A stretch of 64,000 nucleotides of DNA from Natronogracilivirga saccharolytica (GTDB taxonomy: Bacteria > Bacteroidota > Rhodothermia > Balneolales > Natronogracilivirgulaceae). Location: the NCBI RefSeq assembly GCF_017921895.1, contig NZ_JAFIDN010000002.1, forward strand, positions 1 through 64,000. The letters are read 5' to 3'. The notes beneath the pieces were generated by a model. It was not told the origin of the DNA. It saw nothing but the letters and a program-made list of their open reading frames with translations, and made no database searches. Numbering within the stretch: position 1 is the stretch's first letter; the number at the start of each line of letters is the position of its first letter. The position numbers and the translations under genes are program-made. Positions 38,256-56,068 of this stretch are shown piece after piece.

Positions 38256-38372
38256 AACAAGCTCATACAGTATATATGCAGTGTCTGTAACCAGCAGGCT
38301 GCCGGACATTCCAGCGTATGATTAATTATGTAAGGGCACCACTTCTGAAGACATAAACAAAATCTTAAACAC
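38256..38372 (+). repeat. Structured repeat, degenerate copy 0 (purS-purQ gap)
   Basis: Starts after the purS stop and aligns over its second half with the other copies: GGCTG, CCGGACA, then GCGTATGATTAA and an A-rich tail ending TTAAACAC before the ATGAAAT of copy 1. The 3' stem arm is poorly conserved, so this copy looks decayed. Confidence 0.5.
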
Positions 38373-38472
38373 ATGAAATGATCATGACCGGCCGAAATCC
38401 GGACACACATGAGCATGATCAAAAACGGTCATGTCATTCTATCTGACATTATAAATCAGAAATTTTATACAG
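38373..38472 (+). repeat. Structured repeat, copy 1 (100 bp)
   Basis: Begins ATGAAATGATCATGACCGG. Outer stem: AATGATCATGACCG (38377-38390) with CGGTCATGTCATT (38426-38438), one bulge. Inner hairpin: CCGG (38388-38391) with CCGG (38399-38402), loop of seven. The core is diverged here (ACACACATGAGCATGATC). The tail AAATTTTATACAG ends at the ATGAAAT of copy 2. Confidence 0.75.
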
Positions 38473-38571
38473 ATGAAATGTTCATGACCGGGCAGGCGCG
38501 GACACACAGGCGTATGATCAAATACAGTCATGGCATTACATGTGACGATATAAATCCAAACATTTAAACAG
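38473..38571 (+). repeat. Structured repeat, copy 2 (99 bp), ends at the purQ start codon
   Basis: Begins ATGAAATGTTCATGACCGG. Outer stem: AATGTTCATGACCG (38477-38490) with CAGTCATGGCATT (38525-38537), including one G-U type pair. Core ACACACAGGCGTATGATCA at 38502-38520. The A/T-rich tail ends TTTAAACAG immediately before the purQ ATG at 38572. Confidence 0.8.
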
Positions 38572-39267
38572 ATGAAATTCGGCGTACTTGTTTTTCCCGG
38601 GTCCAATTGCGATCATGATGCTTATCATGCGATCAAGCACATTCATAACATTGAAACCACATTCATCTGGCACAAAGAGAAAGAGCTGGGTGATGTTGAT
38701 GCCGTAATTGTTCCCGGCGGCTTTTCATACGGGGATTATCTTCGCAGCGGAGCAATTGCCCGATTCTCTCCTGTCATGAATGAAGTAGTCGCATTTGCCG
38801 AGTCCGGTGGCCCCGTGCTAGGTGTCTGCAACGGCTTTCAGATTCTTCTTGAAGCACGTTTGCTTCCCGGGACCATGATGGCCAATGAACAGCTTCGGTT
38901 TACCTGCAAATTTGTGCATCTTCGGTGCGAAAACAGGCAGACTCCTTTTACAAACGCCATTCCGGATGACACCATTCTCAATATCCCGGTCGCCCACGGT
39001 GAAGGCAATTATTTTGCTGAAAACGACTTGCTGAAAGAACTGGAGGATAACAATCAGATCGTTTTCAGATATTGTGATCAGCGGGGAAACATCAGCCATG
39101 ATTCCAATCCGAACGGTTCAGCCGCAAATATTGCTGGTATATGCAACCGCAAGGGCAATGTGGTCGGTATGATGCCCCATCCTGAAAGAGCTGTAGAGAC
39201 CCGGCTTGGCTCTGATCATGGAAAACTGATATTCGATTCGGCCATTTCGCATCTTTCATCCGTCTGA
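38572..39267 (+). CDS. purQ: Phosphoribosylformylglycinamidine synthase subunit PurQ
   Basis: Glutaminase subunit of FGAM synthase: supplies ammonia from glutamine for the fourth step of purine synthesis. 231 residues, class I amidotransferase with the nucleophile C86 in LGVCNGFQ and the catalytic His-Glu pair in [10 protein letters not shown]; also [15 protein letters not shown] and VAHGEGNY. The ATG lies exactly at the 3' end of the structured repeat, with no Shine-Dalgarno sequence; translation start could depend on that leader. Confidence 0.95.
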
Positions 39268-54766: not shown

Positions 54767-54807
54767 ACGGCATGACTTCTGATGTCAAAAATCGAACATT
54801 TTAACGC
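54767..54807 (+). repeat. Structured repeat, truncated copy (second locus)
   Basis: Only the 3' part is recognisable: ACGGCATGAC, then CTGATGTCAAAAATCGAACATTTTAACGC directly before the ATGAAAT of the next copy. It matches the 3' arm and tail of the intact copies. Confidence 0.4.
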
Positions 54808-54926
54808 ATGAAATACCCATGACAGAGCATAAACTCTGACAAACAGGCGTATGATTGAAACTGTCAGGGTATTTCACTTCGTGAACTTCGGTTCATCTGT
54901 CATTATAATTCGAAAATTTTAAACAC
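54808..54926 (+). repeat. Structured repeat, variant copy 3 (119 bp)
   Basis: Begins ATGAAATACCCATGACAGAG. Outer stem: GAAATACCCATGACAG (54810-54825) with CTGTCAGGGTATTTC (54861-54875), perfect apart from one bulged A. Inner hairpin CAGAG (54823-54827) with CTCTG (54834-54838), loop of six. Core ACAAACAGGCGTATGATTGAAA unchanged. The stems differ from the other copies on both sides in a matching way. About 18 extra bases follow the 3' arm; the tail ends AATTTTAAACAC. Confidence 0.8.
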
Positions 54927-55027
54927 ATGAAATGTCCATGACCGGGCTGGCGCCCGGACAAACAGGCGTATGATTAAATACGGTCATGGCATTACATCTG
55001 ACCATATGAATCAAAAATTTTAAACAG
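54927..55027 (+). repeat. Structured repeat, copy 4 (101 bp), ends at a start codon
   Basis: Begins ATGAAATGTCCATGACCGG. Outer stem: AATGTCCATGACCG (54931-54944) with CGGTCATGGCATT (54981-54993), one bulge. Inner hairpin CCGGGC (54942-54947) with GCCCGG (54952-54957), loop TGGC. Core ACAAACAGGCGTATGATTAA from 54958. The tail AAAAATTTTAAACAG ends directly at the ATG of the nucleotidyltransferase gene at 55028. Confidence 0.8.
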
Positions 55028-56068
55028 ATGAAGCTCATTATTCCGATGGCAGGCCGGGGAACCCGGCTTCGTCCCCACTCGCTGTTAACACCCAAGCCGC
55101 TCCTGCCTGTTGCCGGACCCACACTCATTGAGCGCATCATCCGGATGTTCGGAAAAACCATCAACCGGCCCATTACAGAAATTGCTTTCATCCTCGGAGA
55201 TTTCGGGGATGAAGTTGAGGAGCAGCTCGCTGTCATGACCCGAAAATTCGGCGCTGAACCGGCTTTTTATCATCAGAAGGAAGCGTTGGGCACGGCTCAT
55301 GCTATTTACTGTGCTGCTCCTTCCCTTGACGGTGAAGTTATCATTGCCTTTGCAGACACCCTTTTTGAGCTGAGCGGACAGGTTGATCTCGACAATGCCG
55401 ACAGCATCATCTGGCTGAAGAAAGTCCGGGACCCTTCGCAATACGGCGTAGCCGTGCGCAACGGTAACCGTATCACAAGGTTTGTCGAGAAACCACAAAC
55501 CCCCGTATCTGATCTGGCCATCATAGGTGTCTATTATTTCAAGGAGGGAGAGCGCCTCAAAGAGGAGCTGAAACATCTGCTTGATAACGACATCCGGGGG
55601 CACAAGAATGAATTTGACCTGACGGATGCCATCGACAGTCTTTTGCAGAAGAAGGCTGTTTTCAGATCTGCTGATGTGAAGGAATGGCTTGATTTTGGTA
55701 CACTGGATGCCTGGTTGTCTTCTACCGCTGCTGTAATGGATCGCTTCGATCCCGCAAAAAAAACGGAACGTACATTCCCGGATACACGCATTATACAGCC
55801 TTGTTTCATTGGTGACAATGTCAGCATCTCCGGAAGCACCATAGGTCCGTATGCTACAATCGGGGAAGGCTGCACCATTACCGACAGCACCATAAGCAAC
55901 AGCATAATTCGGGAGAATGCCGTCGTGGAGAATTGTACGCTCGATAAATCCACAGTGGGTGCCTCAACACAGCTGCACTCCTGCAATCAACAGCTTCATG
56001 TCGGTGACTTCTCTGTTATCAAGCCTCCGGAAAAATCTTCCGGAAAAAAGCAGCCCGCAAAAAAATAG
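55028..56068 (+). CDS. Sugar-phosphate nucleotidyltransferase with left-handed beta-helix tail
   Basis: 346 residues. The nucleotidyltransferase domain opens with LIIPMAGRGTRLRPHS (7-16 pyrophosphorylase loop) and TPKPLLPVAG (K23); it also has HQKEALGTAHAI, AFADTLFE and VKEWLDFGTLDAWL. From about residue 255 hexapeptide repeats follow (CFIGDNVSISGSTIGPYATIGEGCTI). The pattern fits glucose-1-phosphate thymidylyl- or uridylyltransferase-like enzymes for cell-surface sugars; the nucleotide cannot be told. The C-terminus is Lys/Pro-rich. Its ATG is the last base-exact boundary of the structured repeat. Confidence 0.85.
   Translation: MKLIIPMAGRGTRLRPHSLLTPKPLLPVAGPTLIERIIRMFGKTINRPITEIAFILGDFGDEVEEQLAVMTRKFGAEPAFYHQKEALGTAHAIYCAAPSLDGEVIIAFADTLFELSGQVDLDNADSIIWLKKVRDPSQYGVAVRNGNRITRFVEKPQTPVSDLAIIGVYYFKEGERLKEELKHLLDNDIRGHKNEFDLTDAIDSLLQKKAVFRSADVKEWLDFGTLDAWLSSTAAVMDRFDPAKKTERTFPDTRIIQPCFIGDNVSISGSTIGPYATIGEGCTITDSTISNSIIRENAVVENCTLDKSTVGASTQLHSCNQQLHVGDFSVIKPPEKSSGKKQPAKK

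Follow-up and report, generated by a model that had tools for sequence, protein, structure and literature searches.

A short structured mobile element without reading frames at ATGAA of start codons in Bacteroidota

Tandem copies before purQ and a sugar nucleotidyltransferase gene

Two genes in the window, the whole 64-kb stretch of DNA analysed, are directly preceded by tandem copies of one structured element. One is purQ; the other encodes a sugar nucleotidyltransferase, an ORF of 346 aa with its ATG at 55028 and Pfam matches to NTP_transferase (E 8e-27) and to hexapeptide repeats. The features of both loci are listed below, P1 and P3 being two of the helices of the element.

38276-38372, + strand: degenerate copy at the purS-purQ junction (covariance model, 45 bits)
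38373-38472, + strand: copy 1, complete element (covariance model)
38473-38571, + strand: copy 2, complete element, immediately before the purQ ATG (covariance model)
38572-39267, + strand: host gene purQ (Pfam); the corresponding site is empty in nine relatives
~54767-54807, + strand: truncated copy, a degenerate right end only (TTCTGATGTCAAAAATCGAACATTTTAACGC) before the next ATG (direct reading; repeat family D1, 61%)
54808-54926, + strand: copy 3, 119 nt, complete element of the CAGAG/CTCTG subfamily with the optional insert (model, 93.4 bits)
54874-54892, + strand: optional insert TCACTTCGTGAACTTCGGT of copy 3, between P1 and P3
54927-55027, + strand: copy 4, 101 nt, complete element of the CCGGGC/GCCCGG subfamily (124.3 bits, the top score of the genome)
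54931-54944, + strand: P1 5' strand of copy 4, AATG-T-CCATGACCG (folding and covariation counts)
54958-54976, + strand: conserved core ACAAACAGGCGTATGATTA of copy 4
54981-54993, + strand: P1 3' strand of copy 4, CGGTCATGG-CATT (folding and covariation counts)
54995-55000, + strand: P3 5' strand of copy 4, CATCTG
55025-55030, + strand: P3 3' strand, CAGATG, which contains the start codon of the downstream gene
55028-56068, + strand: host gene, sugar nucleotidyltransferase (NTP_transferase and hexapeptide), starting ATGAAG (Pfam)

The coordinates, read directly, bear out the original prediction that two full copies and a 3' remnant stand directly before the ATG of the nucleotidyltransferase gene, and the first locus was likewise as described, with a degenerate copy and two complete ones in an array that ends at the purQ ATG. 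Copies 3 and 4 both begin with ATGAAAT on direct reading, and the insert of copy 3 is the reverse complement of the left-arm insert of other copies. The truncated copy gave no match by the covariance model in the genome scan. The core, ACAAACAGGCGTATGATT, occurs three times in the window at up to three mismatches, compared with 0.01 times in shuffled sequences.

From the left, the element consists of ATG-AAA, the 5' strand of P1, a small hairpin P2 and the conserved core (roughly ACACAGGNGCATGATTA); the 3' strand of P1, the optional insert, the P3 5' strand CATNTG, an A/T-rich stretch and the P3 3' strand CANATG then follow, and the ATG within CANATG is the start codon of the gene. The P1 5' strand holds a CATG, 10-11 bases past the left A, in 214 of 273 copies.

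Fold of the element and selection on its base pairing

An outer and an inner stem had been proposed for copies 3 and 4. The quoted bases are correct, but the 5' strands of the outer stem (GACCG or GACAG) and of the inner stem (CCGGGC or CAGAG) share three bases (CCG or CAG), so the two stems cannot both form in full at the same time. The inner hairpin of copy 4 was absent from the RNA fold and present in the DNA fold. A third helix, P3, had been missed; in copy 4 it pairs the CATCTG with the CAGATG listed above, the start codon included.

Since RNAalifold gave no pairs on the raw alignment, the structure was taken from single folds and then tested by counting. Across 102 distinct copies, 88.0% of the cells were paired compared with 73.9% in shuffles, two-sided changes occurred in 15 of 18 pairs, and the covariation score was 0.307, compared with 0.126 in shuffles and at most 0.065 in slid registers. 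Covariation, for which a check across many copies had been called for, is thus present. A second, more divergent set, which partly overlaps the first, was 86.0% paired with a covariation score of 0.265; both alignments were fitted to the structure and are therefore somewhat biased in its favour. In P3, the centre pair was G-C, C-G or A-T in 210 of 273 copies.

The original prediction had taken the compensated differences between copies 3 and 4 as direct evidence for selection on pairing. These copies represent two pre-existing subfamilies of one mobile element, so their comparison is not independent evidence by itself; the covariation over the 102 copies and in the second set, in contrast, does support selection on the base pairing of the element. 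As for the strand that folds, the z-scores with RNA parameters were -2.07 for the sense and -1.64 for the antisense strand, a slight sense-strand preference, and those with DNA parameters were -1.95 and -1.81, respectively. A.C mismatches in P1 were not rarer than G.T (G.U-type) ones, a comparison confounded by sequence constraint; because the left strand is constrained in sequence, it is not decisive for RNA folding. Tandem G.A pairs are possible in P1 of some subfamilies.

Distribution, empty sites and target

A pattern search of this genome gave 37 matches, and a covariance model built from 39 copies gave 112 at E <= 0.1, often arranged head to tail as arrays of two to four. The element is also present in 16 of the 19 other genomes of the family, with between 3 and at least 66 copies each; none was found in the family genomes G005, G006 and G009, and hardly any in the other families of the order. 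When GTDB species genomes were scanned with an exact 20-base core pattern, at least 120 stretches matched, and those listed include Balneolales MAGs, Algoriphagus alkaliphilus, A. boritolerans, Labilibaculum, Saccharicrinis, Breznakibacter, Alkaliflexus and other Bacteroidota. The Algoriphagus copies score E ~1e-9 with the model trained on Balneolales. The element was present in 13 of 247 genomes of a phylum sample, and among 23 genomes of genus g80, which includes genome G226 and resembles Algoriphagus, the counts ran from 118, 114, 93 and 88 down to 2, 1 and 0. Genomes of this genus without the element include G295, G299 and G303, whereas G293, G296, G298 and G313 hold 60-118 copies. Phages, plasmids and viral contigs gave no match, and carriage by phage or plasmid was therefore rejected.

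Comparison of orthologous sites revealed precise presence or absence of the element. G226 has 87 extra bases at the start of a gene for a dihydroorotase-like protein that its close relatives G300 and G293 lack. The filled site reads ...GAATGAAAAG-, the insert ATGAAATGCCC...AAACAC, and -ATGAAAAGTATCCTG, and the empty site of G300 (whose protein is 94% identical) and G293 reads ...GAACGAAAAG-ATGAAAAGTATCCTA (or TTCTA). The insertion is exact, with near-identical flanks and ATGAA on either side, and the site is empty in 26 of 27 orthologues of this gene. Nine genomes have an empty purS-purQ site and six a filled one, namely G000 (this genome), G003, G011, G014, G015 and G019; the filled sites differ in copy number and left flanks, and of G011 and G012, for example, the former is filled and the latter empty. 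Since the element here sits between adjacent genes of the same direction, it occupies the place of a start codon and not that of a promoter. With precise presence and absence at orthologous sites found at both the G226 gene and purS-purQ, the element is a mobile one of ~85-125 nt that is non-autonomous and contains no ORF, and we regard its mobile insertion at ATGAA as nearly certain.

The end ATG is followed by AA in 268 of 273 copies, whereas 11 of 47 window genes (23%) start with ATGAA (Fisher p 2e-32, on a small background of 47 genes). Where the second codon of the gene is AAT, AAC or AAG, the left junction is still ATGAAA in most cases, and the gene behind three of the copies starts with ATGCAA; the shared repeat is therefore ATG or ATGAA, a 5-bp and a 3-bp duplication being not fully separable. 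In this genome, 72 copies are array ends, not followed by another copy; the end ATG starts an ORF of 60 aa or more at 46 of them and at ~28 of the 35 best-scoring ones; in the closed genome G286, 15 of 18 array ends lie at a gene start. An ATGAA outside genes in the window is expected to be a start codon in ~35% of cases. Since the array ends exceed this rate, start codons are favoured beyond the motif itself, by targeting or by selection. Insertion into start codons is the best explanation of the exact ending at an ATG, in preference to a leader conserved with particular genes.

Some individual sites deserve mention. One remaining array end of this genome opens a 38-aa ORF that by eye resembles ribosomal protein L36. 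In the main young subfamily of G286, each of the 12 copies that seem to be flanked by host sequence has a T directly before the left ATG (TATGAA; L388-L405), a rule that was not seen in other genomes. Two copies in this genome, G000 C8:86664-86767(+) and 86732-86837(-), overlap in head-to-head orientation far from any gene start, a placement of which there are few examples.

The genes downstream are functionally unrelated. Families that recur between genera (purQ, rmlA, cystathionine gamma-synthase, pirin and sucC) do so slightly above expectation, which hints at site preference, target context or selection. In both Alkaliflexus and the unrelated genome G148 (L204, L271), the start codon of a gene that by eye is pirin-like is occupied by an element of the local subfamily, which suggests that the two genes were hit independently.

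The left ATG opens a very short frame in most copies; in 151 of 273 it is closed by a stop at codon five or earlier. Spacings from the left to the right ATG are spread over all three frames (102, 95 and 76), so the reading frame is not kept, and in-frame bypass was rejected. In an 89-base subfamily of Algoriphagus alkaliphilus (L144, 6925-7195), the frame of the left ATG ends in a stop that overlaps the next ATG (ACATGA), an overlap that, judged by its sequence, could possibly give translational coupling. Regulation of the host gene may be a side effect of the element.

Mobilisation and relation to known elements

We consider it probable that an ORF-less mobile element inserts at ATGAA and is mobilised in trans via a folded single strand. 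Insertion is base-precise at ATGAA, mostly at the start codon of a gene. The host 5'UTR and ATG remain on the left, while on the right the end of the element supplies an ATG and an A/U-rich leader, both new, so that the gene keeps a start; further copies can insert at either ATGAA and give rise to arrays. The single-stranded intermediate would be recognised by its shape, namely its three stems (P1, P2, P3) together with the conserved core. An internal ATTNCATNTG is predicted to pair with both end ATGs, on the left through the foot of P1 (AA/TT and ATG/CAT) and on the right through CANATG/CATNTG; it could thereby join the two ends and a new ATGAA target, a role comparable to that of the IS200/IS605 guide sequences. 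That such CAT-ATG pairing forms part of recognition is a tentative proposal drawn from this model. As to the route, a single-stranded DNA intermediate is a plausible, if still doubtful, candidate; some other route is less likely, a recombinase-type circle somewhat less so again, and RNA the least likely of the four.

No mobilising enzyme was found in a search of the 20 family genomes for Y1 transposase and reverse transcriptase. Y1_Tnp (PF01797) was found in six of them, half of which are without the element; most element-rich genomes lack it, as does G007 (98% complete, ~40 copies). The single complete IS200-like Y1 transposase gene of this genome (G000 C14:6911-7273, L035) has flanks unlike the element ends. 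Mobilisation by IS200/IS605 was rejected, since Y1_Tnp does not track the element and the sole Y1 gene here has unrelated flanks. RVT_1 (PF00078) was found in five of the 20 and is missing from the element-rich G003, G011, G012 and G014; a link to reverse transcriptase, as expected of a group II intron or retroelement, was rejected, there being no correlation with the element. No right end without a core occurs in this genome, as the right-end matches belong to known copies or arrays with one apparent chance match excepted, so there is no long autonomous version in it. As for IS200/IS605-type targeting, the intact short target is seen as ATGAA, and guide pairing would be the putative counterpart. 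Over 273 copies, no covariation was seen between the host base preceding the left ATG and the guide position in P3; a guide reading of that base was rejected, and any such reading would stop at ATG(AA).

A more far-reaching possibility is that tiny structured elements across the phylum recognise start codons via internal CAU/CAT-AUG pairing and move by an undescribed mechanism, namely a minimal RNA- or ssDNA-guided insertion without a known transposase; taken together, we rate this as unlikely. If it were true, the 5' leaders of up to ~100 genes per genome would be rewritten. Landing on start codons with a new leader and AUG would be a gentle lifestyle in compact bacterial genomes, the element may alter the translation of dozens of housekeeping genes simultaneously, and a start-codon-specific insertion system would have practical use.

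Among the rival explanations, site-specific recombination is improbable but survives best. A tyrosine recombinase of the XerCD or integron type would integrate a small circle, with an ATGAA overlap and an attC-like fold, which would suit the direct ATGAA repeats at both ends, the lack of terminal inverted repeats and the exact insertion. Integron attC sites and gene cassettes resemble the element in structure that is conserved more than sequence, tandem arrays and exact junctions; however, no attC-like boxes were recognised by eye and no cassettes are present, and the element is dispersed over the chromosome at housekeeping genes. Tyrosine recombinases are so widespread that their presence in a genome would be uninformative.

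A shade less probable is movement as RNA, in which the element would be inserted into, or spliced from, mRNA at an AUG and copied back to DNA. It would then be a minimal ribozyme resembling an intron, with an internal guide formed by CAU, and its removal would restore the mRNA exactly. The ATG repeats at both ends permit exact removal, the element is oriented with the gene and lies at the open initiation site of an mRNA, a single internal CAT is able to pair with the ATG at either end, and the possible tandem G.A pairs would also fit. Nevertheless, RVT_1 is missing from the four element-rich genomes named above, with five of 20 family genomes having a reverse transcriptase at all, P1 shows no excess of G.U-type over A.C-type mismatches, and known self-splicing introns are far larger.

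About as improbable as RNA movement, and marginally more so, is a cis-regulatory RNA (riboswitch, thermometer or protein-binding leader) that hides the start codon in P3 for a regulon. Riboswitches and 5'UTR RNA motifs likewise have a conserved core, covarying stems directly before the start codon and tandem copies; here P3 contains the AUG and covaries, the sense strand folds slightly better and some gene families recur across genera. On the other hand, no conserved gene family or pathway association was found: the downstream genes are diverse and without a common function, and the orthologous sites of close relatives are empty. Moreover, copy number ranges from 0 to 118 within one genus, and single genes are preceded by several tandem copies. 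Rfam 15 gave no match above the gathering score in the window and 13 element-rich loci, and the comparisons below that score were chance-level matches only, with E up to 2.

The short, ORF-less, hairpin-bearing form, the unlost target and the guide-like pairing at the ends would agree with a MITE of the classical kind or with mobilisation of an IS200/IS605 derivative by a Y1 transposase. This reading is very improbable and largely refuted by the phyletic pattern of Y1_Tnp; the unrelated flanks of the sole Y1 copy here, and the lack of terminal inverted repeats and of a long autonomous version in this genome, also count against it.

Compared with described repeats, the element works like the non-autonomous palindromes of the REP, PATE or MITE kind, yet lacks the features by which membership in these groups was tested. 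The IS200/IS605-derived palindromic elements (PATEs, and REP/BIME with RAYT) are also short, ORF-less hairpins of high copy number in tandem clusters, with internal guide-like pairing with the ends and no terminal inverted repeats; in contrast to them, this element has no Y1 transposase in most carriers, targets ATGAA at start codons, joins its left end to its middle by P1 and has a conserved unpaired core. MITEs and small repeats such as Correia, RUP and ERIC share the small size, non-autonomy, dispersal and mobilisation in trans, whereas this element has one strict target and restores the start codon by its end; its ends, AAATRCCC and AAACACATG, are not inverted repeats, and an ATG/ATGAA duplication is present. 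In yeast mitochondria, mobile translational bypassing elements are small hairpins within reading frames that ribosomes skip, so that the gene product is preserved. They too spread into genes without destroying the product, but the present element lies at the start codon and replaces the leader. TAACTGA heptamer repeats are intergenic, lie close before start codons in some Bacteroidetes and others, and have no common gene function (PMC4679880); unlike the element, they are plain direct repeats of 7 bases and have neither its structure nor its core or target.

A search of the openly licensed literature turned up no description of the element, and a prior name in subscription papers is possible. 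The element, abundant in cultured Bacteroidota (Algoriphagus) and apparently without a name, is seemingly undescribed so far, and there is a real chance that a new transposition mechanism lies behind it.

Other short sequences occur within the element. A module of 19-22 bases (AACCGAAGGTCACGAAGTGCT, or its reverse complement TCACTTCGTGACCTTCGGT) is placed behind the left ATGAA in some copies and between P1 and P3 in others. It was seen at 54874-54892 of the window and at L017, L052, L111, L227 and L258, and judged by its sequence it resembles a mini-hairpin repeat of its own, nested in the element. Between P1 and P3, Algoriphagus, Labilibaculum, Alkaliflexus and one MAG (L163, L168, L177, L204, L156) likewise have insertions of other dispersed short palindromes (TCCCGAT...ATCGGGA, TGAGCGCAGTCGAAG).
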